Made by a program: the position numbers and the translations under genes
Assembly: GCA_026388155.1 (NCBI GenBank)
Contig: JAPLKI010000016.1
Span: forward strand, 124,001-188,000
Direction of reading: 5' to 3'
DNA from: Elusimicrobiota bacterium
GTDB taxonomy: Bacteria > Elusimicrobiota > Elusimicrobia > Elusimicrobiales > UBA9959
DNA: 64,000 nt
In this document: positions 4,567 to 21,850 of the stretch, piece after piece
Position numbering within the stretch: position 1 is the first letter of the stretch
How the letters are laid out: each line of letters opens with the position of its first letter
The notes under the pieces: generated by a model
Told to the model about the DNA's origin: nothing
What the model saw: the letters and a program-made list of their open reading frames with translations, nothing else
Databases searched by the model: none

Positions 4567-4569
4567 ACC

Positions 4570-5299: not shown

Positions 5300-7429
5300 A
5301 TGAAACTTACCACCAGATTCTTTCTTATACTGCTCGGCATAGCTGTGGTGCCTCTATTGCTGTCGGTCGCCTGGAACATCAAGCAGTATAACTCCTCTGT
5401 TACCAGCTATTACGATCTGCACAAGGGCATTTCAAGCCTTTCCGCCGCCAACGTGGACGAATGGTTCCTGGGTGTTAACAGGGACCTTGCTTTTCTCTAT
5501 GAAATAGAAAATCCGCTTAATAAAAAGAATATCAGCGACATTCAGGTAATCCAACAGGCTACGCGCATTAATTCCGATATCATGTCGCTCAGCATGCTTG
5601 CCAAGGACGGGAAGGAGCTGTTTTTCCTGCAGAGCGAGACTGTACAATCGGCCAGCCCTCTTGCATCTTATCAAACCGAGCTGATAAAAAGAGTGCAGGC
5701 AAGCGGCATCGTTTCCGGCGGGGATGTTTTGTGCCTTAGCCGCCACGCTTATTATCCGCTGGCCTACCCGCTGGTGGACGGGCGGGTGGTGGTTTTCCAT
5801 TTTTTAATGGATAAGCTTCTGGCAAAAATAAATTCACAGGAGACCGGCCGTACCGGGGAAGTTGTGCTGACCGACGGCCGGGGCAGGGCGCTGCCGTGCC
5901 AGAGATTACGCGGCGGCAAACCGGATCCGGCGGAATTGCTGAGGATCTTCCGCGCCGGCGGCAGGACGGGGCGGCTTGACGCCATTACGATTGTGGGCAA
6001 GCCCTATTCAGGCGCCTACTCTGCCGTGGGCAAACTGGACTGGGCGGCCCTGTCCGTGCAGACGGATGACGAGCTTTACGGCCGCCAGAAAAAATCCATA
6101 TTTATCTTTTCAGTGTTCGCCGTGACGGTATTCGCCATAACGCTTTTTGTGGTGTTTTTGATTTCAAACCGCATTATAGGCCCCATCAACAACATGGTCA
6201 ACGGGGTGAAGGGTTTTCTTAAAAACCAGCACCTTGACAAAATAATACCGGCGGTAGGCTGGCCCGAGATAAAAATACTGGTCGGCGTTTTAAACCGCAT
6301 GATGCTGGAGCTGCAGGCCTACCGCGCTTTCCAGCTTAACCAGATAGTGGAAGAGAAAAATAAGGCCCAGGCTCTTATCGATACGATCCCCGACGGGGTG
6401 CTGCTTATCGACGACAGGGGCGGCCTTATCTATTCCAATCAGACGGCGCTGAACCTGCTTGGCATACCAAGGATGGCGGCTGATGTCCTGATACCGCGCT
6501 CCGTAAAAAACGAGGCTTTTTACGCGGAATTTTCCAAACTGAGCCTGTCCAAAGAAAAATTTTTCCGTTCGGAGCTGGAAGCCCCTCTTTCTAACACTAC
6601 CTCCACCGTGCTGAAAAGTTTCCGCATAATAGCCAACCAGTTCATGCTGGCTACCCTGAAACGCCACGGCCGCGTCATTATTATCAGGGATATAAGCTAC
6701 GAAAAGGAGCTTGAAAAGGCGAAGGAAGATTTTTTCCACATGATTACCCACGATATGCGCGCTCCGCTTGCCACCATACAGGGTTATGCCGAACTGCTGA
6801 TGAAAAAAGTTCCCCCCTCGCCTTCCACGGACAAGTATTTTAAAAGTGTGCTTTATTCTTCCAGGCGCCTGCGGGGTATGATAGACGATATTTTAAATAC
6901 CACCAAGCTTGAGCGCGGCACCATGGCTCTCCAGATAGATAAAATGTCCGCCGGCGAGCTTATAACCAGAGTCTGCGAAAACCACGAACCGGTGGCGGGC
7001 CCGAAGAACATAAAGATAAGCGCGCCGCAGCCTGCCGTTCCGATTATATTCAACGGTGACCCGATTCTTCTTGAGCGCGTGGTCACAAACATTGTGGGCA
7101 ACGCCTTGAAGTTCACGCCTTCCGGAGGCAGTATAACGCTTTCCTGTTCGGAAACCGCGGACGAGGTTCTTTTTAGCGTGCGGGACACCGGCCCCGGCAT
7201 ACCGGAAGACAAGCGGCAGATGATCTTTGAGAAATATTCCCAGATGGAAGAGCATAAAAGCATGGGTTTCGGCCTGGGGCTTGCCATGTGCAAGATGACC
7301 GTGGAGCTGCATAAGGGCAAGATATGGGTGGAGTCGGAGGTGGGTAAGGGCAGCGATTTCCTTTTCACAGTTTCAAAAAAAATGACGCAGGAGGCAAAAC
7401 CCGAGACGCAAGCTGAAACAAAAGCTTGA
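5300..7429 (+). CDS. membrane sensor histidine kinase (extracytoplasmic sensor-HAMP-PAS-HisKA-HATPase)
   Basis: Sensor kinase of 709 residues. A membrane helix at about 6-26 is followed by a periplasmic sensor region (about 27-262, Cache-like in length and layout). A second helix lies at about 266-291, then HAMP (about 292-345), PAS (about 355-460, starting ALIDTIPDGVLLIDDRG), the phosphoacceptor helix with His484 in MITHDMRAPLATI, and an HATPase domain with NIVGNALKF, DTGPGIPED and GFGLGLAMCK. Followed, after a repeat-filled gap, by two receivers and an OmpR-like regulator, probably its output. Position just after motAB suggests control of that motor module, by inference. Confidence 0.9.
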   Translation: MKLTTRFFLILLGIAVVPLLLSVAWNIKQYNSSVTSYYDLHKGISSLSAANVDEWFLGVNRDLAFLYEIENPLNKKNISDIQVIQQATRINSDIMSLSMLAKDGKELFFLQSETVQSASPLASYQTELIKRVQASGIVSGGDVLCLSRHAYYPLAYPLVDGRVVVFHFLMDKLLAKINSQETGRTGEVVLTDGRGRALPCQRLRGGKPDPAELLRIFRAGGRTGRLDAITIVGKPYSGAYSAVGKLDWAALSVQTDDELYGRQKKSIFIFSVFAVTVFAITLFVVFLISNRIIGPINNMVNGVKGFLKNQHLDKIIPAVGWPEIKILVGVLNRMMLELQAYRAFQLNQIVEEKNKAQALIDTIPDGVLLIDDRGGLIYSNQTALNLLGIPRMAADVLIPRSVKNEAFYAEFSKLSLSKEKFFRSELEAPLSNTTSTVLKSFRIIANQFMLATLKRHGRVIIIRDISYEKELEKAKEDFFHMITHDMRAPLATIQGYAELLMKKVPPSPSTDKYFKSVLYSSRRLRGMIDDILNTTKLERGTMALQIDKMSAGELITRVCENHEPVAGPKNIKISAPQPAVPIIFNGDPILLERVVTNIVGNALKFTPSGGSITLSCSETADEVLFSVRDTGPGIPEDKRQMIFEKYSQMEEHKSMGFGLGLAMCKMTVELHKGKIWVESEVGKGSDFLFTVSKKMTQEAKPETQAETKA

Positions 7430-7835
7430 TTAAACGCGCGCATTTTTGTTTAGTATGTCAGAGTTGCAAAAAAACAGTTTTCTCAAGCCGGCAGACCGGG
7501 AAGCACCGGGCGTCACCTTATAAAGCCCGGCGGCTAATCCGCCCCAATGCCTGCGCAGGTGCCGTAACAGGGCCTATGGCCATCAGACGGCCGTGCGCTG
7601 TGCAGTGCGTCACGGGGTGCGACAGATGGAGGATAGTTTCTCCTCGTTATTCAGGAAATTTCCGCTTCGGGAGGTTCAGCGCAGCGACCAAGCGAAGCGC
7701 AGGAAGCAAGCGACGAGTTAATGGAGGGCAGAGCCCTCCTTGTGGAGCACCGGGCGTCACCTTATAAAGCCCGGCGGCTAATCCGCCCCGTGCGCTGTGC
7801 AGTGCGTCACGGGGTGCGACAATGAGGACCGCTAT
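7430..7835. repeat. repeat-filled 406-bp gap with duplicated units A and B
   Basis: No gene is visible here. Unit A (43 bp, 7503-7545 and 7747-7789) begins GCACCGGGCGTCACC and folds into two hairpins, CCGGGC...GCCCGG and GGCGGCTAATCCGCC. Unit B (33 bp, 7592-7624 and 7789-7821) begins CGTGCGCTGTGCAGTGCG. Between A and B of the first set lies GTGCCGTAACAGG plus GGCCTATGGCCATCAGACGG (7557-7592), the word also seen at 1977-1998 and 29615-29640. A GGAGGG/CCCTCC hairpin occurs at 7723-7739. Confidence 0.8.
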
Positions 7836-8213
7836 ATGCTAACTATACTTGTGATCGATGATAGTTTTGAATTCAAGACCATGGTGTCCGACTATTTCAT
7901 GGAGCTGGGCTACAAACTCGAAACCGCCGAAGAAGGCCGTGAAGGCATATTAAAAGCCAAGACCAAGAAGCCGGATATTATATTCCTTGATGTGATGATG
8001 CCGGGTGTGGGCGGCATAGAAGTGATCCGCGAATTGCAGTTGGACGATGATACCCGTAATATCCCGATACTTGTAATTACCGGCACTTACCTTAATAAGA
8101 ACCTGGGCGAACTTTTCAGGCAGGAGCCCAACTGCCGCGAGTTCATGAGCAAAACCGTGGAAATGTCCTTTCTTCAAAAAAAAGTTGAAGCGCACCTGCC
8201 CAAAAAAACCTGA
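7836..8213 (+). CDS. stand-alone receiver domain (response regulator)
   Basis: A 125-residue single CheY-like domain. It has the acidic pair IDDS near residues 7-10, phospho-acceptor Asp52 in FLDVMMPG, threonine in LVITGT, and a lysine in the FMSKTVE segment, so it should be phosphorylatable. No output domain is present; it may act like CheY on a motor or pass phosphate onward. The start is ATG at 7836 with GAGGA upstream; an in-frame upstream ATG lies in repeat unit B and is rejected. The stop is two bases before the next receiver gene. Confidence 0.88.
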   Translation: MLTILVIDDSFEFKTMVSDYFMELGYKLETAEEGREGILKAKTKKPDIIFLDVMMPGVGGIEVIRELQLDDDTRNIPILVITGTYLNKNLGELFRQEPNCREFMSKTVEMSFLQKKVEAHLPKKT

Positions 8214-8215
8214 AA

Positions 8216-8593
8216 ATGACCGCTCCCTTAGCGCCCTTAGTGCTTGTTGTAGACGATGAGGCCGATTACCTTGCCATAGCCGCCAGGCTGTTGAAAGGCG
8301 CCGGCTACAGGATTTTAGAATCCGCCTGCGGACTTGACGGAGTGGCGGCGGCCGGAAAAAACAGGCCCGGCCTTATCCTGCTTGACATAGGGCTTCCAGA
8401 TATAAGCGGGCTTGAAGCCGCCCGTAGAATACGCAAGCTCCCCTCCATGTCGCGCGTGCCGATACTTTTTTTTACCGTCCGCTCTGAAACTAATATCGTG
8501 GCGGAGGGCCTGAAAATCCCTGATACAGGGTACATCCTCAAGCCTTTTGACATGCAGGAGCTGCTTGCCAGGGTTGAGGCGCTTTTAGCATGA
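8216..8593 (+). CDS. stand-alone receiver domain (response regulator)
   Basis: A second 125-residue single receiver. Acidic pocket VVDDEAD, Asp57 in ILLDIGLPD, conserved hydroxyl in FFTVRS and lysine in YILKPFD are all present. It is translationally coupled to its neighbours: it starts 2 bases after the previous stop and overlaps the next gene by 4 bases (ATGA). Tandem single receivers beside sensor kinases and a MotAB/FliG-like set suggest a chemotaxis-like or phosphorelay input, which is inference. Confidence 0.88.
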   Translation: MTAPLAPLVLVVDDEADYLAIAARLLKGAGYRILESACGLDGVAAAGKNRPGLILLDIGLPDISGLEAARRIRKLPSMSRVPILFFTVRSETNIVAEGLKIPDTGYILKPFDMQELLARVEALLA

Positions 8594-9291
8594 GGCCGGA
8601 CGCCAGGTTTCGCCTCGCGCTTGTAAGCGCGGACCCCGCCGAGGTTAAAGAGTTGAAAGCCGCGCTTTGGGGACTGAGGCCCGAAATTTACCCGAAAGCG
8701 GCGCTCCTCCTTAATGTTTTAGCCAAAAAATCCCCCGAACTGGTAATCATCGGCGTAACTCCGCCTTCCATCAGCGCCCGCGACCTGATTTCCGTGCTGC
8801 GCGGCTGCGGCGGGCGGCGGCTTGTTTTGGTCGGTTTGCTTGCCGCTCCGGACGCGCGCATAGCGGGTGAAACACTGGCCGCCGGCGCAGATGAATGCTT
8901 CGCTTTCCCTCCCGATCCCGCGCTTTTCAGGGCGCGGCTCCTGAACCTTCTTGCCCGGGCACGGCTGAATAAAGAAGACGCGCCGGAGCCGGAAGTAATC
9001 CGGCTCGGACAACTTGAAGCGCGCCCGCTTGAAAGGACCGTTCTTTTTTCGGGGAAAAGCCTGAAGCTGACGGCTCTTGAATTTGATCTTTTACTTTACT
9101 TCCTCTCGCGGCAAGGCCGGGTGGTATCGCGCGGTACGCTTGTGGAGCAGGTGTGGCGCAGGGATTTCGGAGTGAACGCGCGCGCGGTGGATAAGAGGAT
9201 AGAGGTTTTGCGTTTCAAGCTGGGGAGTTTCGGCCGGGCCATCCGCACCGTTTTCGGCCTAGGATATATGTTTAAGGCTGAAGGTTTATAA
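8590..9291 (+). CDS. OmpR-family DNA-binding regulator with degenerate receiver
   Basis: A 233-residue protein with an N-terminal receiver-like fold (about 5-120) and a C-terminal winged helix (about 137-230) of the OmpR/PhoB type (LTALEFDLLLYFLSRQGRVV, VDKRIEVLRFKLG). The receiver lacks the phospho-aspartate: the strand reads LVIIGVTPPS where LLDxxLP is expected, and the acidic pair is replaced by VSAD. It probably works without canonical phosphorylation or with another input. The stop codon (TAA) lies inside hairpin E3, which separates it from the convergent kinase gene. Confidence 0.85.
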   Translation: MRPDARFRLALVSADPAEVKELKAALWGLRPEIYPKAALLLNVLAKKSPELVIIGVTPPSISARDLISVLRGCGGRRLVLVGLLAAPDARIAGETLAAGADECFAFPPDPALFRARLLNLLARARLNKEDAPEPEVIRLGQLEARPLERTVLFSGKSLKLTALEFDLLLYFLSRQGRVVSRGTLVEQVWRRDFGVNARAVDKRIEVLRFKLGSFGRAIRTVFGLGYMFKAEGL

Positions 9292-9322: not shown

Positions 9323-11344
9323 CTATTTAGGCAGCTCCCTTGCTATCGGCAGTGTAAGCTCAACTAAAGCCCCTCTCATCTTACCGTTTTTAGCCGTGAG
9401 CTTTCCGCCGTGTTTGCGGGCCACGGCTTCGGCAATGGTAAGCCCGATGCCGACTTTGTCCTTGCCTCCCGGGTTAAAGGGCAGAAATAGTTTCTCAAGT
9501 GCTTCCTGGCTGAAGCCGGGCCCCGAATCCTCAAAGGCAAAGACGGCTTCTGCTTCGTTTTCCGAGGCTTTAAGCACCAGCTTTAGAGCGCCGCCGGCTC
9601 CAAGATGTTCGTAGGCGTTCGTTATTATATTGGTAAACGCAAGTTTGAGTTTTTGCGCGTTTATCCGTGCCGTGGCGTACGGCATAAGTATTTGCTTTGA
9701 AAGCGCGAGTCTTTTCGTGCGGAAAGTCGTTTCCCAGTGCGCCGCCTGATCGGACAGAAAATGCGCCAGGTTTTCTTCTGAAAGCTCAGGCGTTTCCTCG
9801 TCCATATATTCCCGCCAGCCTTTAATAATTTCCACCGCGTCAGCCAGGCTTTTAAGGGAAGGTTCAAAGCCGCGCCGCTCGGGAACCGAAAGTCTTATGC
9901 TGAACCCTTTTATGCCCTTTGAAGCCTTTTCCAGGCTTGCGCTGACCTTATCGGTGAAATTAAACTGCTCGCGTTTTATTAATTCGGTTATGTGCAGATT
10001 TTTGCGTTTTAAATCGTCAATTTCGCGTTCCAGCGCCCCCACCCTCTTGTTCTCTTCCTTCAGGTCCGTAAGCGTCCTTTCTTTTTCTTCCAGGCGGCGC
10101 ATAAGCGCGGCGGCGTATTCCTGGTTTTTTACCAGGCGTTCGTTGAGCGTCTCAGTGTTTTCCTGGAGAATTCTTATTTTTACCAGAGCTTTTTTATGTA
10201 TTTCCTTTTCCTGGAATAGGTCGGCGGATCTGTCGCGTAAAATCAGGTTGATCTTTTCAATGTCGGAATTTCTGGCCTCAAGGGCCGCCTGAACCGCCCG
10301 TGTTTTTTGCGAGCTTTCTTCAAGCCCGCGCCTTAATTCCGCCGCCTTTTCCTGCAGACCGAAAATCTGTTTTACGGCTCCGGTAAAATTACTTTTTTGC
10401 TCCTCGGCTTTCAGGCGCGTTCCGGCCAGCTCGAATTCAAGCTCCGAAGAGAGAGCTTCGGCTTTTCGCGCGGTTTCCTTGTACTCCGCGCAGCGGTTTT
10501 CGGCGTCTTTCAGGCGTTCTTCAAGCCCGCTCCGCGAGGCCAGGACGGCCGCGAGCCGGTTTTCAAGCTCGATTTTCTCTCCGGCAGAAAGCGCGAGGCG
10601 GTTTTCCTTGAGTTCAAGCTGCGCCCTCAAAGCCGCCGCCGCTTCCTCTTGCTCCGCTATCCCGCGCCTGAGCGCGGAGTTGTTTTTCTCCAGATTTACT
10701 ATTTTTTCGGCGGTTTTGCCCAGTACGGCTTTAAAAGCGCTCGTTTGATGCAGCGCGCGTTTCCGTGCGGCAACGGCTTCTCCAAGCCTGGCCGCGAGAA
10801 TTTCGTAGGCCGAGGCCGTTTTTCCGGAGGCAAGACAATCGGCTTTTATTATTTCGGCGATTTCTCCAAGCGATGTCAGAGCGGCTGCTTTGCCCTGCAG
10901 GGCGTCCACCGCCCTCTGCCTTGCGGCAAGGGTCTCTTTTAAACCGGCCAGTTCCGAGCGCAGGGCCGCGATCTCGGCTTCCAAAATAGAATTCTCCCCT
11001 TTTTTCCCGGCGAGCTCCTCCGCTAAAGCCGCCTCGCGTCCGGGGGCATTGCCCGCGCTTTCATTCAGTTTCCGCGCTCTGGCTACGATGTCCGCATCCC
11101 CCTCAATTTTTCCTTGCAGGGCGGAGATTTCAGTTTTCAGCCCGGTTTCCCGTTCCAGACATTCTTTTAGAGCCCGCTCCAGGTGCGCGAGCCTTGAACT
11201 CAAAGCGGACGCCTCTTGTGCGGTTTTTTTGCGGTCCTCAATGGCGCTTGAGGCGCTCTCTTGCGCGTCGCGCACGCTTTGCCAGAGATAATCCATCTCG
11301 GAGTAAATGGTTTTATCGGGGATGTTTTCCATTCCTTCACCCAT
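9323..11344 (-). CDS. long coiled-coil protein with C-terminal HATPase (atypical histidine kinase)
   Basis: A soluble 673-residue protein with no signal peptide or membrane helix. Residues about 10-480 are almost continuous heptad-rich coiled coil. The C-terminal ~120 residues form a histidine-kinase ATPase domain (NAQKLKLAFTNIITNAYEHL N-box, EDSGPGFSQEAL G1, VGIGLTIAEA G2). No HisKA motif with an H-E/D-x-R/N-P signature is visible; the region before the ATPase has only NLAHFLSDQAAHWE. It lies 5 bases downstream of the FliF-FliG hybrid gene, so the two are co-transcribed. The product may be a cytoplasmic signalling or scaffold ATPase associated with the motor protein; this role is inference. 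Confidence 0.82.
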   Translation of the reverse strand: MGEGMENIPDKTIYSEMDYLWQSVRDAQESASSAIEDRKKTAQEASALSSRLAHLERALKECLERETGLKTEISALQGKIEGDADIVARARKLNESAGNAPGREAALAEELAGKKGENSILEAEIAALRSELAGLKETLAARQRAVDALQGKAAALTSLGEIAEIIKADCLASGKTASAYEILAARLGEAVAARKRALHQTSAFKAVLGKTAEKIVNLEKNNSALRRGIAEQEEAAAALRAQLELKENRLALSAGEKIELENRLAAVLASRSGLEERLKDAENRCAEYKETARKAEALSSELEFELAGTRLKAEEQKSNFTGAVKQIFGLQEKAAELRRGLEESSQKTRAVQAALEARNSDIEKINLILRDRSADLFQEKEIHKKALVKIRILQENTETLNERLVKNQEYAAALMRRLEEKERTLTDLKEENKRVGALEREIDDLKRKNLHITELIKREQFNFTDKVSASLEKASKGIKGFSIRLSVPERRGFEPSLKSLADAVEIIKGWREYMDEETPELSEENLAHFLSDQAAHWETTFRTKRLALSKQILMPYATARINAQKLKLAFTNIITNAYEHLGAGGALKLVLKASENEAEAVFAFEDSGPGFSQEALEKLFLPFNPGGKDKVGIGLTIAEAVARKHGGKLTAKNGKMRGALVELTLPIARELPK

Positions 11345-11349
11345 AGAAA

Positions 11350-12777
11350 TCAGCCTCGCGTCGGAAGCGTTGTGCGGCCTTTTCTTTCCAGTTCAAGCGC
11401 CGCGGCAATTATTTTCGCCCTTGCGTTGATGGTCTTTTCCAACTCCTGGGGGCCTGAAAGCAGATCTTTAACGATAAGTCGCACATCTTCAGACATGAGT
11501 TTAGTCACGTTGGCGGCGCTGGCAGGCGGGATACCCGCCAGTGCGCAGGCCCAGTCGGCGTATGGCCGCGCCACCACAACGGGCCGCAGGTTCTTTTCTT
11601 CAAGGTGGCAGATATCTTCAAAGGTAAACAGGCTCTTTGTGATTTCTCTCGATTTTTCCGGGTTTGAGCGGGCAAGCTGCTCAATAATCTCGTTGCGCTC
11701 GGTTTCGTTTACAAGGCTCAGCATGCGGCTGAGTTTTTCCGTGCCTTTCAGGCTTTTTTCCATTTTCATGCGCAGTTCGTTCTCAATTTCATATATCCGC
11801 TCCGGCTCCGCCTGCTTCAGGCTGATCAGCTGGTCCGTTACGGCCTGCTTTTTTTCAGGCGGAAGAGCGAGCAGCAGGCGGGATGACAGATGAGGCTGTT
11901 TATCCGCCAAGTTCGCGATAATGATAGCCGCGTCTTCCTGCGGCAGCTCGCCCACAAATTCAGCGGCGAGGGTCTGAGGGAGTTTTTCAAGGAAGTCAAA
12001 GGCCTGTCCCGCTTCGATCATGCCGCCTGGCGCGGCGCCGGTTTCCACATCTATCACTTCTCCCACTTCTCCGGTTTCACCTCCCCCGCCCGACGCCTGG
12101 GGGCCCGCGGCGGGGCCCTCGCCTCTGGAGACTCCTGCGTTAAGCTTGGCGTAGTCAATGAAATTATTGAGCAGTTTTGAGACCAGGGCGTAGGCGAAAA
12201 GAGCCAATATCACGAGCCCCAGCGCCCCCGCCAGGGCCGCCAGAAGAATTTTGCGGTTCTCGGGGGAGTACAGCAGATCGTTCCACCAGGGGATCATGTC
12301 CGCCTTAGCGGTGATAATGCTGTCGCCGCGCTGTTCGTTCAGCCGCAGCGTATCGGAAATCAGAAGTTTGGCGGCGTTTATTCTGTTGTCGGGCACGCTC
12401 CGGTCAAAAATAAGCGAGACGCTCAGCTTTTTAAGGCGAAATTCCGAGCTGCGTTCGCCTTCCTCGCGCTGCTGCTTAATATACTGGCTCGTTTTCTCCA
12501 ACAGGCTTGAGCCGGCATATCCCGGCAGGGGAAGACTTTCCTCCTGCTGGGGGGTGGCGGATTCGCTTTTTGCCTTCAGCAGTATTTCACCCTCGGCGTT
12601 TACAAAAACCCGGGTTTTGCCTTTTCCCACCAGCTGCTCAAGGAGATTTCCCACATCGGCCTGCAGACGGGAGGAAATTTCAGCTTCCCTGAGCGGGGAG
12701 GTGTTCAGCGGTTCCTCGGCGGCAAACGCGCCGGACCATAGAAGCGAGAGTAAAAGAGCTAAATAGATTGTTTTCAT
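11350..12777 (-). CDS. FliF C-terminal / FliG hybrid motor protein
   Basis: A 475-residue fusion. Residues 1-19 look like a signal peptide (MKTIYLALLLSLLWSGAFA). Residues about 30-175 match the C-terminal periplasmic part of the FliF MS-ring protein (LLEQLVGKGKTRVFVN; LKKLSVSLIFD; LNEQRGDSIIT; PWWND). A membrane helix follows at about 177-202. After a Gly-rich linker, residues about 258-470 match FliG middle and C-terminal domains (FDFLEKLPQTLAAEFVGELP, LFTFEDICHLEEKNLRPVV, then a torque-helix-like EDVRLIVKDLLSGPQELEK). FliF's N-terminal helix and first ring-building domains are missing. A GTG start at 12810 is possible; ATG 12777 gives the clean signal peptide. Co-transcribed with the coiled-coil HATPase. 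Confidence 0.82.
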   Translation of the reverse strand: MKTIYLALLLSLLWSGAFAAEEPLNTSPLREAEISSRLQADVGNLLEQLVGKGKTRVFVNAEGEILLKAKSESATPQQEESLPLPGYAGSSLLEKTSQYIKQQREEGERSSEFRLKKLSVSLIFDRSVPDNRINAAKLLISDTLRLNEQRGDSIITAKADMIPWWNDLLYSPENRKILLAALAGALGLVILALFAYALVSKLLNNFIDYAKLNAGVSRGEGPAAGPQASGGGGETGEVGEVIDVETGAAPGGMIEAGQAFDFLEKLPQTLAAEFVGELPQEDAAIIIANLADKQPHLSSRLLLALPPEKKQAVTDQLISLKQAEPERIYEIENELRMKMEKSLKGTEKLSRMLSLVNETERNEIIEQLARSNPEKSREITKSLFTFEDICHLEEKNLRPVVVARPYADWACALAGIPPASAANVTKLMSEDVRLIVKDLLSGPQELEKTINARAKIIAAALELERKGRTTLPTRG

Positions 12778-12809
12778 AGTAAGAACAGGTACAGAAACAT
12801 TTATTTTCA

Positions 12810-12890
12810 CTCAGAAGACAGGATTCAGTAGTCAGAATTCAGAATTCTTGAATATTCTGGTTCCTGAATTCTGACTTCTGGCTACCTGAG
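12810..12890. repeat. intergenic hairpin E4 (CAGAATTC type)
   Basis: The left arm TCAGAAGACAGGATTCAGTAG pairs imperfectly with the right arm CCTGAATTCTGACTTCTGGC around GAATTCTTGAATATTC. It lies upstream of the FliF-FliG gene and downstream of the next kinase on the same strand. Confidence 0.65.
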
Positions 12891-12928: not shown

Positions 12929-14353
12929 TTACGGGTTTATATTCCGCGGGACCTCAAACCAGAAAAGAGCTCCCCCTTCAGGCGCCGCTCCGGCTCCGAT
13001 ACGGCCTTTATGCAGCTCCACAATGGCCTTTGAAAGCGCGAGTCCGAGACCGGTGCCCTTTTTTTGGGCTCCGCGCGCGGTCTGGCCGAAAACGGAAAAC
13101 AGGCCTTTGATCTCCTCCGGCTCAATGCCGGGACCCTCGTCGCGCACTTCCACCCGCAGTTTTTCCCCGTCCATAAAGGCCGAAATTCCGACCTCCTTTC
13201 CCGCGGGGGTGAATTTCAGGGCGTTTGAGACTAAATTAGTAAGCGCGTGCGTTGTAAGTTCCCGGTCAAGAAGCATTGGGCCGCGGCAGCCGGAAATATC
13301 CACCGTTAGTTTGACGCCTTTTTTTGCGGCTTCAGAGCCGAAAAATGCCGCGAGATCTTCAATAAGCGCGCCCGGCTCATAGTTTGAAAGGCGCAGTTCC
13401 ATTTTTCCCCTTTCAATCTTGGCCAGATCGAGCATGACGGTGACAAAATTTGACAGGCGCGAAGCATTGGTCTTTATGCGCGCCAGATCGCTCAGTTCAC
13501 GGCGCGTCCAGGCCCTGCCATCCCGCAGCAGCAGTTCCACATAGCTTTCTATCGCGCCCAGAGGGGAGCGCAACTCGTGGGTAATTGAGGAAATAAAATT
13601 TTTTTTCATGGCCTCCAGCTCCAGCAGTCTCGCCGACATGGCGTTGAAAGTGCGCGCAAGTTCGGCGATCTCATCGGAGCCGCGGGCCTCTATTTCGGCG
13701 CCAAAACGGCCTTCCCCCACGGCGCTGGCGGCGGCGGAAAGCCTTTTCAGACGCCTGGTAAGATGATAGGAGAGGGCAAAGCCGGCGCCCGCTGAAACAA
13801 AAAGTGAACATAGAAAGGCGATAGACAAATCGCGATAAACGGCGGTCAGGCGCGCCCGGACCTCGCTTTCCAGGTATGCCGCGTCAAATTCAAGCCTGGC
13901 CGCGTACTTGAGCGAATGGATTTCTTCTACCGGGTTTTTTGCAGGCCCCGCCCTTTTGGCCGGGGAGGTGCGGTTAATTATCTTGTCTTTCTCCGATGGC
14001 AATTTCCCCCGGCCCCAAAAGAGCGGGGCAGGCGGCGGGGCGCGCCTGAGCCTTGCCGGAGTCCGTCTTGGTTTTATCGGCCTGAATCCGCGGCCCAGGT
14101 CCAGTTCGGCGCCTGCGAGCTCCGGGCGGCTTGAAAGCAAGTCCGAGAGGTAATCCACCACCATAAGCGGATCTGCGGCCAGTTCCGCTTCCGAGAGAAT
14201 GTCGCGTGTTCCGCTGATAAGCAGGGCGGCCCTTTCCTTATGCGTTCTGACAAGCTCTCTCTCCTGAAACTTTATAAAAAAGAAAGAAAGCGCAAGAGAG
14301 GCCGTGGCGGCTATAACAAGCAGCGCGGCGCTTAATTTATAATACAGTTTCAT
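12929..14353 (-). CDS. membrane sensor histidine kinase with palindrome-derived insert
   Basis: A 474-residue kinase. Helix 1 (about 7-27), a short periplasmic region (about 28-174), helix 2 (about 175-197), HAMP (about 198-250), HisKA with His259 in SSITHELRSPLGAI, and HATPase (NLVSNALKF, DEGPGIEPEE, GTGLGLALSK). The periplasmic loop contains a basic, low-complexity stretch (residues about 108-137, APLFWGRG...RAGPAK). Its DNA (13944-14031) is bounded by the inverted ends of palindromic element P, so this part of the protein looks like an in-frame element insertion. A clear cognate regulator is not adjacent. Confidence 0.9.
   Translation of the reverse strand: MKLYYKLSAALLVIAATASLALSFFFIKFQERELVRTHKERAALLISGTRDILSEAELAADPLMVVDYLSDLLSSRPELAGAELDLGRGFRPIKPRRTPARLRRAPPPAPLFWGRGKLPSEKDKIINRTSPAKRAGPAKNPVEEIHSLKYAARLEFDAAYLESEVRARLTAVYRDLSIAFLCSLFVSAGAGFALSYHLTRRLKRLSAAASAVGEGRFGAEIEARGSDEIAELARTFNAMSARLLELEAMKKNFISSITHELRSPLGAIESYVELLLRDGRAWTRRELSDLARIKTNASRLSNFVTVMLDLAKIERGKMELRLSNYEPGALIEDLAAFFGSEAAKKGVKLTVDISGCRGPMLLDRELTTHALTNLVSNALKFTPAGKEVGISAFMDGEKLRVEVRDEGPGIEPEEIKGLFSVFGQTARGAQKKGTGLGLALSKAIVELHKGRIGAGAAPEGGALFWFEVPRNINP
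13944..14031. repeat. palindromic element P-like insert inside kinase gene
   Basis: GCCCCGCCCTTTTGGCC at 13945-13961 and GGCCCCAAAAGAGCGGGGC at 14011-14029 are inverted with respect to each other. They match the terminal words of element P at 1843-2108 over 16-17 bases. The interior differs from P. The reading frame of the kinase passes through without a stop. Confidence 0.7.
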
Positions 14354-14462: not shown

Positions 14463-16475
14463 TTATCTCGACAGCCTTATTATCCTTTCAAGCGCCTTCT
14501 TGGCCTGGGTGTTTCCGGGATCCAGTGTGAGTATTCTTCTGAATATGTCGGCCGCTTTGCCGTAGTCGCTTTTTGTGTAGAAGTCGGCGCCCTGCTGATA
14601 TAATTTCTCTATTTCCCTCGGGTCTTTGCCGGAAGGCTTCGGCGTTTCCTTTGCCGCCGCCGCCCCCGGCCCCGTCGCCGTAGCAGCCGTAGTGCCCGCA
14701 GTGGCCGGAGTCTGCCAATTCGGGCCCTGCTGGGACTTGGCCTCGGCTATCGCTTTAACAAGTTTTTCCTTTTCCGTCGGGTCGGTTTCAAGTTTAAGGG
14801 CGCGTTCCCAGTCCTTATCCGCCTGGATGTAATTGCCAAGCAGATAATGGCAGGAACCGCTTTTCTTTAGCGCGATCGGATTGTCCTTCTCAAATTCCAT
14901 CGCTGCATCCAGCCGCTCCAGGGCGTCCTCATATTTCTTTTGCGCGTAGAAAAGATCCGATTCCTCAATTTTATATTGGGGCCAGCCGCGGTTGAAAGTC
15001 ACCGGCACCCTGTCCGCCTTAATGCGCGATACTTCTTCGGCCTTGTCGACGAAGTTTGAGAGGGTCGAATCCTGCTGGTTGAGGCTTTGGGCGTATGAAA
15101 GTTCATGCATGGCGTTTATGTCCTTTCCGCGTAAAAAATCCCGAATCCCCGACGAAAGAAGCTGGGTGGCCTTGTCACGGCCCTCCTTTGGCGGCATGGC
15201 CGGATAAAAAGCTGCCACCGCGGCTAAGCGGCGGGTAAGATTTATCACCGAAGTGTCCGGCAGTAATTCCCCCGCCTTGTCTACTAACAGCTTACTTGCC
15301 GCCTGGTAGTTCTCTTTTTCAACTTCGGCGTTTATTTGCGCGAGACGCGGGTCATCAAGGCTTGCCGTGTCGCGCCCGCTCTTATAGTCCGCCGCTTCCC
15401 GGATTTTTTTGTACTGCTCAAGGAATTCGGTCGCCGCCTGCTCATCCGCCGTGGGAGAGCCGAAATGGTAGACCATGGCCAGTTTATGGCTGCCGATAGT
15501 ATTCTGCACGGTTCCAAGCGGTATTGAAAAACCGTAATCGAACTGAATTTTGCTTATCTTGTAGGAGAGGCCGGCTGTAATCTGCCTGAATTCCCTGTCT
15601 CCTATGCCCAGCGACATCCTTGCCGAAATATCACCCTTGTCCAGACTTGGGAAAGTTTTTTCCGCGCCGAAAATAAACTGCTTGTCCTGCGTGCCGCCAG
15701 GGCCCTTTTGCATCTTAATTTCCGAGGTAAGCAGAAGCCACAGGGCTTTGTACGACGCGCCCAAACGGGTTTTCATGGGTACGGGATCTTTTTGCGAGAA
15801 GCCGACATCGGGCTGGTTCGCGTCCAGTACGGCCAGCCCCAGAGTATAGTGTTTATCCAGGCGGTAAAGAATACCCAGGTCCGCGCCCAGGGCGGATTTG
15901 GAGTTCGCCCCCACCAGAACGGGGTCGGATGCGTTTGTGGCTGAAATACCGTCCACGGAATTAACGGCATTATAGGCTTCGTCCAGGCGGGAGAAGGAGT
16001 GTGTGAGGTACTTTAGCGAAGTGCCGACGGAAAATTTTTCCAAAGAAGTACCTTTAGGAAAACGGTATCCGTATGAAAGTTGCATGGCTTTTTCAGCGTA
16101 AATCCCGGAAAGTGAGAATTGGTTCCATAAAAAGCCAAGTCCGCCCAGGCGTCCGTTATCCAGCGGCATGGCGAAGGCGGCGTTGCTCAGCCCGAGGCTT
16201 GAGCCGTCGCTAAGCCCGCTGTATAATATGGAATGCGAGGCCATGGCTTTTGGCCGTCCTATATCCGCAAGGCCCGCCGGGTTGTAATAAATTGCGTTTA
16301 TATCGTCGGCCACGGCCGTGAAGGCATCCCCCATGCCGGCGGCCCTGGCGCCGAGGCCCATGTCCTCAAAAGCGGCGAAAGCGGGATACTGGGTACAGGG
16401 TATTGGGCACAGGATAAAAGCGAGCAGGATTGCCAAAAATGACGCTGGCCGTTTATTCTGCGCTAGAATATTCAT
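14463..16475 (-). CDS. PorV/PorQ-like outer-membrane barrel fused to helical TPR domain
   Basis: Secreted 670-residue protein. A signal peptide (about 1-35) is followed by the PorV/PorQ-family opening (GLGARAAGMGDAFTAVADD and IYYNPAGLA) and an outer-membrane beta-barrel of ~300 residues ending near SHKLAMVYHFG. From about residue 340 it becomes helical, with TPR-like units (SDLFYAQKKYEDALERLDAA; LLGNYIQADKDWERALKLE) and a last TPR at the C-terminus after an Ala/Thr/Gly/Pro linker. PorV proteins act as outer-membrane carriers for proteins with C-terminal sorting domains in type IX secretion. Here two proteins with such a domain are encoded next to it. Whether that function applies is inference. 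Confidence 0.83.
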   Translation of the reverse strand: MNILAQNKRPASFLAILLAFILCPIPCTQYPAFAAFEDMGLGARAAGMGDAFTAVADDINAIYYNPAGLADIGRPKAMASHSILYSGLSDGSSLGLSNAAFAMPLDNGRLGGLGFLWNQFSLSGIYAEKAMQLSYGYRFPKGTSLEKFSVGTSLKYLTHSFSRLDEAYNAVNSVDGISATNASDPVLVGANSKSALGADLGILYRLDKHYTLGLAVLDANQPDVGFSQKDPVPMKTRLGASYKALWLLLTSEIKMQKGPGGTQDKQFIFGAEKTFPSLDKGDISARMSLGIGDREFRQITAGLSYKISKIQFDYGFSIPLGTVQNTIGSHKLAMVYHFGSPTADEQAATEFLEQYKKIREAADYKSGRDTASLDDPRLAQINAEVEKENYQAASKLLVDKAGELLPDTSVINLTRRLAAVAAFYPAMPPKEGRDKATQLLSSGIRDFLRGKDINAMHELSYAQSLNQQDSTLSNFVDKAEEVSRIKADRVPVTFNRGWPQYKIEESDLFYAQKKYEDALERLDAAMEFEKDNPIALKKSGSCHYLLGNYIQADKDWERALKLETDPTEKEKLVKAIAEAKSQQGPNWQTPATAGTTAATATGPGAAAAKETPKPSGKDPREIEKLYQQGADFYTKSDYGKAADIFRRILTLDPGNTQAKKALERIIRLSR

Positions 16476-16585: not shown

Positions 16586-17005
16586 TCACCGTATCACTAC
16601 TACGGTGCCCTTATAAACTCTCTTTTCAAGTCTTATCTGGTAAAGATACACCCCCCCGGGTTTTTTGCCGCCGGAATTGGGGTCCCATTCCAGGTCGTAG
16701 TAGTAAGAACTATCAAGATGTATTGTTTTAAGACGCATCTGGGCCACTTCCGCGCCGGCCAGATCGTATATCGTAGCCTCTATGGCGGCCGCCCGCGGGT
16801 TGTAACACTGGAAAACAAAAGTGTCGTTTTTATGGTCGCCGTTAGGCGTGACCAATCTTGAAAGGGCGCGGGAGTCGCCGACATTTATGGCGGCGCGCGG
16901 CATTGTTAAACACGCCAGCAGTAAAACAGCCGAAGCCAGTGTCCACCTGCTGACCTGCGGCAGGCTTGCCGGCGCCCGCTTTGGTTTTTTATAAGGCGAT
17001 TCCAT
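16586..17005 (-). CDS. small secreted protein consisting of a FlgD/CHU_C-like C-terminal domain
   Basis: A 139-residue protein (from ATG at 17003-17005) with a basic N-terminus, a signal-type hydrophobic stretch (WTLASAVLLLACL), then almost nothing but one immunoglobulin-like C-terminal domain of the FlgD-Ig/gliding-motility CHU_C type: TPNGDHKNDTFVF, YDLAGAEVA, PGGVYLYQI and YKGTVVVIR. The same domain closes the divergent gene at 17136. An upstream in-frame ATG at 17023 falls in repeat words (AATAGCAAATGG) and is rejected. A stand-alone sorting-type domain is unusual; it may be a shell, an adaptor, or the remnant of a larger protein. Confidence 0.75.
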   Translation of the reverse strand: MESPYKKPKRAPASLPQVSRWTLASAVLLLACLTMPRAAINVGDSRALSRLVTPNGDHKNDTFVFQCYNPRAAAIEATIYDLAGAEVAQMRLKTIHLDSSYYYDLEWDPNSGGKKPGGVYLYQIRLEKRVYKGTVVVIR

Positions 17006-17135
17006 ACATTTGCTATTTGCCATTTGCTATTCACAATTCTACTTTTCAATTGTGACTATTTTATTACGGAATTATGGATGGTGTCAGTCATTTGTTTGTA
17101 ATAATTTAGTCGCAAGGGAAAGATATACTTTAGCC
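17006..17135. promoter_or_regulatory. divergent promoter region with partial hairpin words
   Basis: A 130-bp gap between divergent secreted-protein genes. It carries unpaired element words (TTTGCTATTTGCCATTTGC) and a short inverted repeat, CACAATT...AATTGTG. It is the only divergent gap in the window with traces of the hairpin family. No confident -35/-10 pair could be picked. Confidence 0.4.
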
Positions 17136-18797
17136 ATGAAGCTAAGCTTGCGGGCGGCTTTTCCGCCCATGCTTTTTGCGTTGCTTTTCTGCGCGCCGGC
17201 CATGGCTGCACGGACGGCTTCGCTTTCTTTTGCCGACATCAACGGGATAATGTCCTATGGTTCCGGCATGATGTATTCATCGGATTTTGAATCGGAGGGT
17301 AACGCCCAGGAACTGGCGGTTTCAACCGGGGACGCGGAGTCCTACTCAGGGCGTTCCGGTAAGTTGTCTTTTTGGCCCATGCCCGCGCCGGTAAATAATT
17401 TAGCCGCTGTGGCTTTTTCAAGCAACACCCTTCGCCTTGTATGGACGGCTCCCACGGCGGACTGGACCCACAACAGGGGGGCCGCGCTGAGTTATATTCT
17501 GCGCTACAGCACGGCGATTCCGATTACGAGCGACGCCGGTTTCCGCTCCGCATCCGATTTTTCGCAAGATTGGCCGCCGCTGGGGCCCGGGTCGGGTGAG
17601 GAACGGATAATTGAAAACTTTAATCCGGGAACCACCTATTATTTTTCCATAGAGAGCGTCAACGATCAGGGATTTAGCTCCGAAATATCAAATTCAGTTA
17701 TAGCTTCGGCGCTCCCGCCGCTTCCCCCCATAAATTTAAATGTGATCTCATCCGGAACTTCCTCATATCGCGTAACCTGGATGGCGCCGACCGGCTATCA
17801 GAACCGCATTCCCTTTGGCAGCCGCTTTGCCCCGGCCTCACCCTACGAGGTGAATAGTTACCAGGTGTTTCGGGCTACAGCGTCCGCGAACGCCGATTGG
17901 CGGTTTATAGCTGAAGTCTCTTCCGGCGTATTCGCCTGGACCGATGTAGTGGACCAGGGTTCGCAATACTACTATCATGTAAAAGCTATAAATAAGGCGG
18001 GGGCCTCGCAGCCGTCTTACGCGAGGGCAGGCCAGTCGGGCGCTCTTTATTTTCTGGCGCCGGATAACGAAAGTGTATTGGAGGTGCCTGGCGACGCCGC
18101 AGGCCAATTCTTCTCGGCCGGCGCCGACCCGCTTGATACGTATTCAATAGAAATATCCACCCATCCCGAGGAGATATCCGGAATAGTGGTTAAGTCGGTG
18201 GAGTTCGCCGCTTATAAAGGCGGCCTGCAGCGGGATGACACATTTAAACTGTCCAAGCCCTCCGTTTTGAGGCTGTATTACCAAAAGAACGGCGCGGAAA
18301 TAGTCCCCTCAGCCGCGGACAGCGCCAGAAGCCCGCGGCAGGCCAAAGTCACCGCTTTGACCGCCGCAAAAGCCCTAAGCCTTTATTTTTATAATGGAGC
18401 CAAGTGGCTTCAGCTTTACGGCAAAGTGGACGAGACCGGAAAAAATATTCAACTTAACACCACGCTTTTGGGGCGTTATCAGATCCGCTCAACCGAGCGT
18501 CCAGGCGGTTTTTCGGCTGATCTCTCCGGTCTCTCCAACCGCCTTATAACTCCCAACGGCGACGGCAAAAATGATACCATGGTCTTTATTTTTGACAACC
18601 CCGATGACACGGCGGTGAAAGGCCGTATATTTGATATTAAAGGCTTGTTTGTGGCCACAATGAAGAAAGGACTGGTGGCAAATTCTCTGGTTTGGGACGC
18701 GAAAGCCGGAGGCCAGGCGGTGCCGGGCGGCGTCTACATTTATCAGATAGAAGCAAGCGGCCATGTGTACAACGGAACGGTGGTGGTCGTAAAGTAG
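17136..18797 (+). CDS. secreted fibronectin-III-type protein with FlgD/CHU_C-like C-terminal domain
   Basis: A 553-residue surface or secreted protein. The signal peptide MKLSLRAAFPPMLFALLFC ends near AMA. Two fibronectin type III-like modules follow (about 80-190 and 195-300, with PAPVNNLAAVAFSSNTLRLVW and LPPINLNVISSG starts), then a beta-rich region. The C-terminal domain (about 470-553) contains LITPNGDGKNDTMVF, VPGGVYIYQI and YNGTVVVVK, as in the neighbouring small protein. The start at 17136 removes 42 upstream codons that run through a promoter. DNA at 18307-18353 (encoding SAADSARSPRQAKVT) is 41/47 identical to intergenic DNA upstream of acpP, so this segment may be element-derived. 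Confidence 0.8.
   Translation: MKLSLRAAFPPMLFALLFCAPAMAARTASLSFADINGIMSYGSGMMYSSDFESEGNAQELAVSTGDAESYSGRSGKLSFWPMPAPVNNLAAVAFSSNTLRLVWTAPTADWTHNRGAALSYILRYSTAIPITSDAGFRSASDFSQDWPPLGPGSGEERIIENFNPGTTYYFSIESVNDQGFSSEISNSVIASALPPLPPINLNVISSGTSSYRVTWMAPTGYQNRIPFGSRFAPASPYEVNSYQVFRATASANADWRFIAEVSSGVFAWTDVVDQGSQYYYHVKAINKAGASQPSYARAGQSGALYFLAPDNESVLEVPGDAAGQFFSAGADPLDTYSIEISTHPEEISGIVVKSVEFAAYKGGLQRDDTFKLSKPSVLRLYYQKNGAEIVPSAADSARSPRQAKVTALTAAKALSLYFYNGAKWLQLYGKVDETGKNIQLNTTLLGRYQIRSTERPGGFSADLSGLSNRLITPNGDGKNDTMVFIFDNPDDTAVKGRIFDIKGLFVATMKKGLVANSLVWDAKAGGQAVPGGVYIYQIEASGHVYNGTVVVVK
18307..18353. repeat. repeat Q, coding copy
   Basis: A 47-bp segment (CCTCAGCCGCGGACAGCGCC...) matches 29552-29598 at 41 of 47 positions. 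Its middle, CCGCGGACAGCGCC...GCCCGCGGC, is partly palindromic. Here it is translated in the fibronectin-type protein; the other copy is non-coding. Confidence 0.7.
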
Positions 18798-18874: not shown

Positions 18875-21850
18875 ATGAATTCAATAGAAAACGGTAATTT
18901 GCGGATTTCCCGAAAAATCAGGCGCAGTGTCGGTTCTTTTCTCTTCCTGTTGCCCGTTACCGGCTGCCTGTTGCCTTCCTATGCCGCCATCACGCCGACC
19001 CTGAGTTATCAGGGCTTTCTGCTGAACAAGGTGACTAATTTGGCCGTTGATACGCCGCAGGACATGAAATTTATTTTTTATGACGCGCCTCAGTCCGGAA
19101 ACGCGCTTTTCACCGAGAGCCGCTCTAATGTCCCGGTTCTGAAAGGACGCTATGATGTGGAGATAGGTTCGGTAACCGGCGGCATACCGTTTTCCGTGTT
19201 CCGGGGAGATACGGAGATTTGGCTTGAAATACAGGTTAAGAACCAAAGCAGCAATTACGAGGCAATGTTGCCGAGGATAAAAATGCAGGCTTCTCCTTAC
19301 TCCTTCAACTCCCTCTACGCTTCCACAGCTTCCGCCGCCACTCAAAATTTCTCGGCCGATACCATAAATGCTTTGCCGCAAACCCAAAACGGCGCCATAA
19401 CAGTTTCCACAAATATCGTTGTGCAGGGCGGACTTTCCGTGACCGGCATTGTGGAAAGCAAAGTCGGCGGTTTTATGTTTCCCGACGGCCATACGCAGAC
19501 GGAGGCCGCCGCCCAAAATATGTGGAAGCTGAGCGGCACCGGCAACGACCTTTACAGCGTAAACACGGGCAATGTGGGTATCGCCAACGACACGCCGCAG
19601 GCCCGGCTTGATGTTCTTTCTGCCGGCTCCGCGCAGACCGACATGGCGCAGATATGGCGTGATTCCGGCGGCGTGATAAAGGCCTCCATGTCCGCCACCG
19701 GCGTAATGACGGCGGCAAAGTTCGTTGGCGACGGCACGGGACTTTCAGGCCTGGTCTTAAAGGCCGGCGATTCCATGACAGGCCCGCTGACGGTGACTTC
19801 TCCGCTCGGATTGTCCGCTCCCAAAATAAAGCTTGCCGACAATGTAGAGCTTTCTTCAGCTACGACGGCTTTCCAGGGCGGCGTCTATATTTCAACCAAT
19901 GTGTATCTGCCTGCGGGGGCGAAATACTATGGCGACGGTTCCCAGCTTCAAGGCGTGCCGGTGGTCGACCCGACGAAAGTGGCCAAGAACGGCGACACAA
20001 TGACCGGACAGCTGACCCTGGGTAATAACTCCACGATGACCGTAACCGGCAATGCTTTCTCCGTGGGAGGAAGCACTTTCTCCATTTCCGGGGGTAATAC
20101 CGCCGTGGGCAGTTCTTCCTACCTGGCGCGGCTTACCGTGGGTGGAGGAATTATCGCCACTTCAAGTATAACAACACAGGCAGGGCTTTATGCGGATGCA
20201 ATAACAATAGGAGGAATGCTGCCTGGTTACACCTCCAGGGCCATCTTCAGCAATTTCGACACCTATAGTATAGAAACCGCTTCCAGCGTAATGGTTCACA
20301 CGGGCATAGTGACGGCTCCTGATTTTGTGGCTACAACCGGGCGATTTACAGGGCGATTTACAGGTGACGGTTCAGGGCTGACAAATATTAACGGGACCGA
20401 CACCAATAAAGTTTCAAAGGCAGGCGACATCATGACCGGGAGTTTGCTGATAACAGGCTCAAACCTGCAAACCTACTCATTTACGGTTTCAAGCCCCTCC
20501 AGTGTGAACGCGTACAGCCTGGCTGTAACCACCGATGGATATGTGGGTGTGCAGGTTTCAGCCCCCACCGCTCCGCTTGAGGTTAATCAGCAGATAAAAA
20601 TTTCAAACTCCGCCAAGAACGGTTTCATAAGCTGGGCCTCACTGGGCGGCGGCGTCAGCCAGGGCGCTTTGGGTTTTCCGGCCGGCACAAGGGACCTGGT
20701 CTACCGGGCGGCCGGTTCGGACCCGGTCACCGGCGGCCAGGAAGCGTTCAGAATAAGATCCGACCAATCCGGAAACTGGAGCGCGGGCATCGGAACCGCT
20801 GCTCCGCAAGCGGGATTGCATATAAACGCAAATACACTTTTCGGGGCTGACCTGAATTCGCCTATAATGTATGTGAGCACAAATTCTTCCGGCGTGGGTA
20901 TTTCAACTACCTCAATTACCAGCAAACTGACGGTCGATGGCGGCATTCTTGCCACTTCTTCAATTACCGCGCGCGGCGGCTATTATGGAAACCAGAGCGG
21001 TATTACCCTTAACGGCAATACCGGCATTGGAAGCAGTCCGTCGCCGGATGCGGGTCTATATGTGGCGAAGGCCGGCGCTGCGTATACCCTGGCCGTAGGC
21101 ATGCATGGTACACCTGATGAGTACACCAAGTATTATGATTTTGCCGTCACTGCAGGAGGCCGTGTAGGCATTGGTTTGGATTTTAATACAACCGAGCCGA
21201 CTAATAATTTGCAGGTCGTTAACTCAATAAGGATAGGCGCCGAGGACGGCGGGGATTCCATAGCTTCTCTTATTTTGCGCCCGGTTGGCGGCCCCACCTA
21301 TATAAGCTGGAGCGAAAACCAATCCGGCTACCGGAACAAAGGTGTTTTGGGCTTCGCGCTCAATTCCAATGATCTGGTTTACAAAGCCGGCGCAAGCGAT
21401 CTCAGCAATGGCGTTGAGGTTTTCAGGATCGCCGCCAATTCCTCCGGCGGCTCATGGAAATTCGGTATAGGGACTAACAACCCGACGGAAAGGTTCCATG
21501 TGGCAACCAACGTGCTTATAAGCACGGCCGCTACTTCTCCTATACTTTTTGTAAGCACGGCCAGCGGCAATGTGGGGATAGGCACCAGTTCCCCCGCTAC
21601 GCCGCTGGATGTGCGGGGCACGGCAAGTTTTGGAAGCGCGGCTACCCGCTCCACTATTACAGCCGAGGGTTTTTGGCAGCCGCGTTGGCTCACCTCAGCC
21701 GAAATACAGACGCTTCCTGCAACCGCGGTCGGCCAGGTTATTGGCAGTTCGACCTTACAAGACCTTTGTGTCTCCACCGGTGTAGTGGCCGGCTCATGGG
21801 TGCGGGTTGGTTTCGGGACCCCATCAGGGAATAATAATGCGTGTTGGTAA
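18875..21850 (+). CDS. large secreted tail-fibre-like repeat protein
   Basis: A 991-residue protein with an N-terminal signal region (SVGSFLFLLPVTGCLLPSYA), a beta domain opening TPTLSYQGFLLNK, then a long repetitive body. It contains three GDxMTGxL units (KAGDSMTGPL, KNGDTMTGQL, KAGDIMTGSL), several FVGDGTGLSGL/FTGDGSGLTNI units and recurrent GNVGIGTSSPATPLDV-like units, all words typical of phage tail fibres and bacterial trimeric surface fibres. The C-terminus ends GTPSGNNNACW after an AEIQTLPATAVGQ segment. GGAGG precedes ATG. Likely a surface-exposed fibre or adhesin. It lies downstream of the sorting-domain proteins but lacks their C-terminal domain. No phage structural neighbours exist, so a prophage origin is not supported. 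Confidence 0.75.
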   Translation: MNSIENGNLRISRKIRRSVGSFLFLLPVTGCLLPSYAAITPTLSYQGFLLNKVTNLAVDTPQDMKFIFYDAPQSGNALFTESRSNVPVLKGRYDVEIGSVTGGIPFSVFRGDTEIWLEIQVKNQSSNYEAMLPRIKMQASPYSFNSLYASTASAATQNFSADTINALPQTQNGAITVSTNIVVQGGLSVTGIVESKVGGFMFPDGHTQTEAAAQNMWKLSGTGNDLYSVNTGNVGIANDTPQARLDVLSAGSAQTDMAQIWRDSGGVIKASMSATGVMTAAKFVGDGTGLSGLVLKAGDSMTGPLTVTSPLGLSAPKIKLADNVELSSATTAFQGGVYISTNVYLPAGAKYYGDGSQLQGVPVVDPTKVAKNGDTMTGQLTLGNNSTMTVTGNAFSVGGSTFSISGGNTAVGSSSYLARLTVGGGIIATSSITTQAGLYADAITIGGMLPGYTSRAIFSNFDTYSIETASSVMVHTGIVTAPDFVATTGRFTGRFTGDGSGLTNINGTDTNKVSKAGDIMTGSLLITGSNLQTYSFTVSSPSSVNAYSLAVTTDGYVGVQVSAPTAPLEVNQQIKISNSAKNGFISWASLGGGVSQGALGFPAGTRDLVYRAAGSDPVTGGQEAFRIRSDQSGNWSAGIGTAAPQAGLHINANTLFGADLNSPIMYVSTNSSGVGISTTSITSKLTVDGGILATSSITARGGYYGNQSGITLNGNTGIGSSPSPDAGLYVAKAGAAYTLAVGMHGTPDEYTKYYDFAVTAGGRVGIGLDFNTTEPTNNLQVVNSIRIGAEDGGDSIASLILRPVGGPTYISWSENQSGYRNKGVLGFALNSNDLVYKAGASDLSNGVEVFRIAANSSGGSWKFGIGTNNPTERFHVATNVLISTAATSPILFVSTASGNVGIGTSSPATPLDVRGTASFGSAATRSTITAEGFWQPRWLTSAEIQTLPATAVGQVIGSSTLQDLCVSTGVVAGSWVRVGFGTPSGNNNACW

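Follow-up and report, generated by a model that had tools for sequence, protein, structure and literature searches.

Cut-down rotor and stator genes in flagellum-less Elusimicrobiota suggest an undescribed cell-surface rotary machine

A cut-down, one-piece rotor gene that occurs with stator genes, in several copies, in flagellum-less Elusimicrobiota suggests a cell-surface rotary machine that has not been described before. The gene lies in the window, the 64,000-nucleotide stretch of an Elusimicrobiota genome analysed here, and encodes a fusion of the FliF ring-building motif RBM3 with the middle (M) and C-terminal (C) domains of FliG; profile searches, AlphaFold2 and Foldseek concur on this assignment. 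The evidence, all of it computational, comprises the domain make-up and fold of the protein, its paralogs, the absence of those flagellar proteins that were searched for, co-occurrence and co-divergence with MotAB, and a conserved gene neighbourhood. The dedicated MotAB stators, the four paralogs, the lack of flagellar genes and the setting among surface-protein and PorV genes go beyond the initial annotation, which was made from the sequence alone. A literature search, incomplete in coverage and so not proof, returned no report that links FliG to Elusimicrobia or describes such a system.

Domain structure and fold of the rotor fusion

The open frame spans 11350–12810 on the minus strand, and the rotor fusion is the 475-aa protein read from the ATG at 12777 (11350–12777); this start is likely, as it coincides with that of the orthologs. 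Residues are numbered from this ATG; the Pfam search was run on the GTG-start version of the protein. A signal peptide with an AFA-A cleavage pattern, assigned from hydropathy and sequence (residues 1–20; 12718–12777), is followed by an RBM3-like periplasmic domain (residues 28–158; 12304–12696), a single, long transmembrane helix identified by hydropathy and AlphaFold2 (approximately residues 172–206; 12160–12264), a Gly-rich cytoplasmic linker that AlphaFold2 predicts to be mostly disordered (residues 207–257; 12007–12159) and the FliG M and stator-facing C domains (residues 258–469; 11371–12006), all on the minus strand. The linker stands where the tail of FliF and FliG-N would otherwise lie.

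Both FliG domains exceed their Pfam cut-offs (FliG_C, PF01706, E = 1.8e-14; FliG_M, PF14841, E = 9e-7). The best PDB sequence match is to the M and C domains of T. maritima FliG (1lkv, 3.8e-15), improved to 1.8e-21 with an ortholog profile; Foldseek likewise matches 1lkv, and in it the C domain superposes on MotAB-bound FliG (8ucs_H) with a TM-score of 0.85. For the periplasmic half, the FliF C-terminal profile YscJ_FliF_C (PF08345) gave 9e-5 and 23.3 bits against a cut-off of 23.8, 0.5 bit short, and because this sequence evidence is weaker the FliF identity was checked by structure. The AlphaFold2 model, made with 32 orthologs, contains a helix (28–50), a strand (55–68), an insert, a second strand (110–124), a helix (130–143) and a final strand (153–158). 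This predicted α-β-insert-β-α-β order is that of a split ring-building-motif fold, with an insert (approximately residues 69–109) modelled at low confidence. Although the model of the periplasmic half alone has modest confidence (mean pLDDT 67), all of the top 18 matches to it in a Foldseek search of the PDB are FliF RBM3 or MS-ring entries (E = 5e-5 to 5e-4, probability 1.00); SpoIIIAG appears weakly. The fusion of a FliF C-terminal part to FliG, as read in the initial annotation, therefore stands. The profile-level link expected there for both halves was obtained for FliG and narrowly missed for FliF, where Foldseek supplies the support.

Several parts of the canonical proteins are missing. 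The RBM1/RBM2 region of FliF (PF01514) was searched for in the entire genome and gave no match at E ≤ 1, while four controls were positive, which agrees with the initial proposal that the N-terminal MS-ring domains are absent. The two membrane helices that flank the periplasmic part of FliF are likewise not present; a cleavable signal peptide and one remaining helix take their place, also as proposed. Within the fusion, FliG-N (PF14842) reaches merely 14.9 bits and overlaps the M region, the full-length FliG equivalog TIGR00207 scores 46 bits against a cut-off of 226.7, and the EHPQR FliM-binding motif is missing, ELPQED aligning with T. maritima SEHPQT. By these measures the protein is neither a FliF nor a full FliG.

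Paralogs, dedicated stators and distribution

The genome contains four rotor fusion genes, on four contigs. The three paralogs are just 21–24% identical to the window protein, and all carry a signal peptide, an RBM3-like part and FliG. A single membrane helix is clear in three of the four genes, and the copy on contig 22 has two adjacent hydrophobic peaks. The contig 10 paralog bears a C-terminal TPR; it represents a widespread rotor type with this extra cytoplasmic segment after FliG-C (residues ~570–640; L005:9519–11474, plus strand), which the window type does not have. The initial annotation had proposed counting relatives with the same fusion. Full-length orthologs of the window gene, 46–60% identical, are present in 30 or more genomes of the family. 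Of 295 phylum genomes, 126 have FliG_C, for the most part in fusion-sized frames and in up to 8 copies per genome. Since the orthologs come from independent assemblies and three paralogs exist in the same genome, the fusion is not an artefact. In one scan of genome contigs, fusion loci appeared only in Elusimicrobiota or in bacterial MAGs without a phylum name.

The system is not a flagellum. The flagellar export gate protein FlhA has no match in the genome and occurs in 3 of the 295 phylum genomes (G204, G032, G235); FliM/FliN, also without a match in the genome, are found in 2 of 59 family genomes (G204, G295). It is this near-absence of FlhA from the phylum, together with the lack of RBM1/RBM2, FlhA and FliM/FliN in the genome itself, that excludes a flagellum. 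The flagellated relative G204 has a normal operon of separate fliF and fliG genes, and the fusion locus on another contig. Flagellar genes have been stated to be absent from Elusimicrobia (PMC7031533); in contrast, a few Elusimicrobiota, those just named for FlhA and FliM/FliN, do carry them (L109–L111).

In the window, a MotA stator subunit (3799–4566, plus strand) with PomA homology over its whole length (1e-32) is followed by a MotB subunit (4570–5196, plus strand) with a membrane-helix Asp and an OmpA-type peptidoglycan-binding domain. By the full-length MotA/PomA homology and these two MotB features, the predicted stator is of the flagellar type (FIT). All five MotB proteins of the genome keep the membrane Asp and the OmpA-like domain. 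The window motAB genes lie in a convergent operon ~6 kb from the rotor gene rather than adjoining it.

The association of stators with rotors is seen within the genome and across the phylum. All four full-length MotA genes and all five MotB_plug genes of the genome sit at the four rotor loci; the other two MotA/ExbB matches are 209 and 214 aa long. Among the 295 phylum genomes, MotB is present in 124 of the 126 with FliG_C and in 8 of the 169 others (Fisher 1.9e-70, a value that overstates independence because the genomes are related). The tree of the FliG part and that of MotA have the same paralog clades; long branches leave the position of true flagellar FliG and MotA with respect to the fusion clades uncertain. 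Pairwise distances of rotors and stators correlate (r = 0.907), and the observed pairing is the best of 864 within-genome re-pairings; species history is controlled for because re-pairing was restricted to loci inside one genome. We read this co-divergence as indicating that each rotor has its own stator. The rotor locus on contig 22 has one MotA gene followed by two different tandem MotB genes (L009:7982–9300, minus strand), an arrangement also present at rotor loci L084, L093–L095, L104 and L106.

The charges at the rotor–stator interface differ from those of E. coli. With E. coli numbering mapped by us, FliG R281 aligns with Asp and D289 with Leu at the window locus, and the equivalents of MotA R90 and E98 are both Gln, so that the canonical charge pairs are not preserved. 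The torque helix of the rotor nevertheless has four near-invariant charged positions (D431, R433, K437 and D438).

Gene neighbourhoods of the rotor loci

The rotor gene belongs to a conserved block of 13 genes that is found again at eight further loci, which come from several genera. On the plus strand, MotA and MotB are followed by a PAS/HisKA/HATPase sensor kinase (5300–7429), a CheY-like receiver protein (7797–8213) and a second receiver protein (8216–8593), both assigned from sequence and synteny, and a response regulator with a Trans_reg_C DNA-binding domain (8590–9291). Converging on these from the minus strand are a long coiled-coil protein with a C-terminal HATPase_c domain (9323–11344), which begins 5 bp past the rotor stop codon, the FliFG fusion, and, upstream of it, a HAMP/HisKA/HATPase sensor kinase (12929–14353), a PorV/PorQ-family outer-membrane barrel with C-terminal TPRs (14463–16475; NF033709 2e-15, below cut-off, with TPR and synteny in support) and a small secreted protein that consists mostly of a type IX secretion system (T9SS) type-B-like C-terminal domain, or CTD (16586–17023; TIGR04131 1e-4, below cut-off). 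The block is completed on the plus strand by a fibronectin-III surface protein whose C-terminus is a CHU_C type IX secretion signal domain (17010–18797; PF13585 5.7e-7, above cut-off), conserved like the small CTD protein in 8 loci, and by a 991-aa repeat-rich, fibre-like surface protein (18875–21850), which is a conserved neighbour as well. The coiled-coil protein has a HATPase but no HisKA match, and its contig 10 counterpart is a coiled coil without HATPase.

Gene content was compared across 41 rotor loci by six-frame search, since MotA genes in GC-rich loci were missed by the greedy ORF caller. A PorV-TPR gene is present in 38 of the 41, and MotA together with MotB lies within the compared stretch in at least 29, a lower bound because some stretches are incomplete. 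The widespread rotor type on contig 10 has the order giant surface protein, PorV-TPR, FliFG-TPR, coiled coil, MotA, MotB and lipoprotein, and its PorV-family protein exceeds the NF033709 cut-off. Upstream of this PorV-FliFG-MotAB operon, one uninterrupted open frame, at least 10,786 aa long, runs off the contig start (positions 1 to 32419; L155+L006+L005); the protein ends with a T9SS-like CTD that matches curated models weakly. T9SS-type CTDs often occur on large surface proteins beside rotor genes.

The PorV/PorQ family is strongly expanded in the genome, with 29 matches, few of them at rotor loci. An even spread would place ~0.17 of these per 20 kb; enrichment at rotor loci is therefore clear, although the family is not specific to the rotor system, and its abundance makes the PorV link less specific than that to MotAB.

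A divergent SprA/Sov-like protein of 1840 aa is encoded on contig 25 (L114:10703–16225, plus strand; TIGR04189 2.4e-42, 144.5 bits against a cut-off of 200), and direct sequence search of the PDB with it gave no match. The gene adjoins LptF/LptG-like permease genes. SprA-like proteins occur in 262 of the 295 Elusimicrobiota genomes, including rotor-less lineages, a distribution that suggests, at the level of sequence matches, a phylum-wide T9SS-like translocon. A role for the rotor as the general motor of this system was considered and is weakened: it is unlikely because SprA-like proteins are common where rotors are missing.

A proposed rotary machine and its alternatives

We think it probable that these genes specify a non-flagellar rotary motor, in which an S-ring-like FliFG rotor with its own MotAB stator would be linked to the outer membrane and would most likely serve gliding-like movement of adhesins or export. 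Copies of FliFG would be exported by way of the signal peptide and anchored by their one membrane helix, the RBM3 domains assembling in the periplasm into a small ring like the S-ring, and the FliG M and C domains into one that hangs in the cytoplasm, without a FliM/FliN switch. MotAB (3799–5196), fixed to peptidoglycan, would use ion flow to push the FliG C domains and turn the ring. With no rod, hook or filament, torque would be passed across the periplasm to the PorV-family/TPR protein in the outer membrane and to the surface proteins that partner it, and would move, or help to export, large adhesins, giving gliding-like surface motility in the former case. Every paralogous locus would provide one motor together with a stator and cargo of its own; the motor of the window locus is probably controlled by the two-component proteins there.

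The machine most likely operates like the flagellar rotor. It shares with flagellar FliF/FliG and MotAB/PomAB the RBM3 domain, a membrane helix, the FliG M and C domains, a PomA-type stator and a MotB with the Asp and peptidoglycan-binding domain. In contrast to the flagellum, the Elusimicrobiota rotor is one fused protein without RBM1/RBM2, the first membrane helix and FliG-N, there is no FliM/FliN or export gate, and a genome holds several paralogous motors. Isolated FliF RBM3 makes native-type rings (PMC8786727), and SpoIIIAG, the sporulation channel protein whose lone RBM3-type domain is its point of likeness, makes a 30-mer (PMC8092281), although it has no FliG domains and no MotAB. The initial annotation had argued that the ring must be assembled in a different geometry or with another partner; this is unnecessary, because the S-ring-building RBM3 is retained and forms rings alone. 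A copy number unlike that of the flagellar ring is possible but not required, the collar insert being short and predicted at low confidence.

Engineered Salmonella FliF–FliG fusions, which join the FliF membrane part to FliG M and C with most of FliG-N gone, are motile (PMC7355467); a fused architecture can thus work, and torque passes such a joint. These fusions are artificial, however, keep RBM1/RBM2 and act inside a full flagellum. The closest natural likeness is in another non-flagellated lineage, the Chlamydiaceae, where a shortened FliF is joined to FliG (PMC4768692). The Chlamydia protein has no SpoIIIAG-like domain (RBM3), keeps only part of the SctJ-like region, contains just the M region of FliG and has no described stator; the Elusimicrobiota fusion makes the opposite selection of FliF domains and adds FliG-C. 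The Chlamydia case also lends no support to the assertion of the initial annotation that natural fusions keep the full FliF. The GldLM/PorLM motors of type IX secretion and gliding resemble the proposed machine in being ion-driven inner-membrane motors that work on outer-membrane and surface proteins, with PorV-family barrels, CTD-bearing adhesins and CheY-like control, but the motor parts differ, MotAB and FliFG standing in place of GldL and GldM. GldLM uses ion flow both to secrete and to move the SprB adhesin (PMC8986121), and PorX, a CheY-like protein, binds the motor (PMC10951265).

We favour movement of adhesins over their export by analogy with these systems, export being the main rival. 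In that alternative, the same MotAB-driven rotor would power the export or assembly of large surface proteins, as a T9SS-like energizer replacing GldLM/PorLM, and would not move the cell. PorV-family barrels and CTD-bearing giant proteins at rotor loci and the divergent SprA-like protein fit this reading, as does the single motor that serves both jobs in Flavobacterium (PMC8986121); the GldM profile matched 0 of the 295 phylum genomes, which proves nothing because positive controls likewise gave no match. Secretion in the many rotor-less lineages with SprA-like proteins, however, evidently runs without a rotor, and we regard export as the sole task as fairly unlikely. It is less likely still that there is no full rotation and that MotAB acts as a TolQR/ExbBD-like force generator, the FliG part doing no more than relaying strokes or signals to the outer membrane by way of the membrane protein. 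The altered torque-charge pairs and the outer-membrane proteins among the rotor neighbours would suit such a device, but the stators are PomA-type and full-length, cytoplasmic torque region included, and the ring-forming parts of both RBM3 and FliG are retained.

A SpoIIIAG-like periplasmic channel or scaffold, with the FliG part a mere assembly platform, would account for the SpoIIIAG-like nature of RBM3 (PMC4768692) and the weak Foldseek match, but it leaves the dedicated MotAB stators unexplained and is very improbable. Non-motile species with relic flagellar genes are known (PMC12199754), but a functionless remnant of a lost flagellum is already contradicted here, and scarcely credible, given the conservation and copy number of the full-length orthologs, the 13-gene neighbourhood, the co-divergence with stators and the presence of the fusion alongside a real flagellum operon in one relative.

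Returning to the rotary motor, a more specific form of the proposal can be put forward tentatively, as somewhat less than an even prospect: flagellar-type rotor/stator modules used in the absence of a flagellum, with several parallel copies per cell, may each drive their own giant adhesin via an outer-membrane PorV-type complex, a rotary form of gliding. If rotation and coupling to surface proteins are true, this would be a distinct class of motor. According to a 2025 survey, 11% of the species regarded as non-motile possess rotor proteins while lacking a filament; the survey raised the questions of what use half a motor might be and what a minimal rotor is (PMC12199754). The Elusimicrobiota system, in which the rotor is a single protein paired with a dedicated stator and is conserved in a phylum almost without the export gate, is a candidate answer. 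It bears on the origins of the flagellum, in which rotor and stator may have been a module able to work without export gate or filament, and on whether flagellar-type MotAB stators are confined to flagella (PMC12505986). As a single chain, the RBM3–FliG rotor offers a simple system for structural work, and it is relevant to the ways in which uncultured Elusimicrobiota might move or deal with surfaces.
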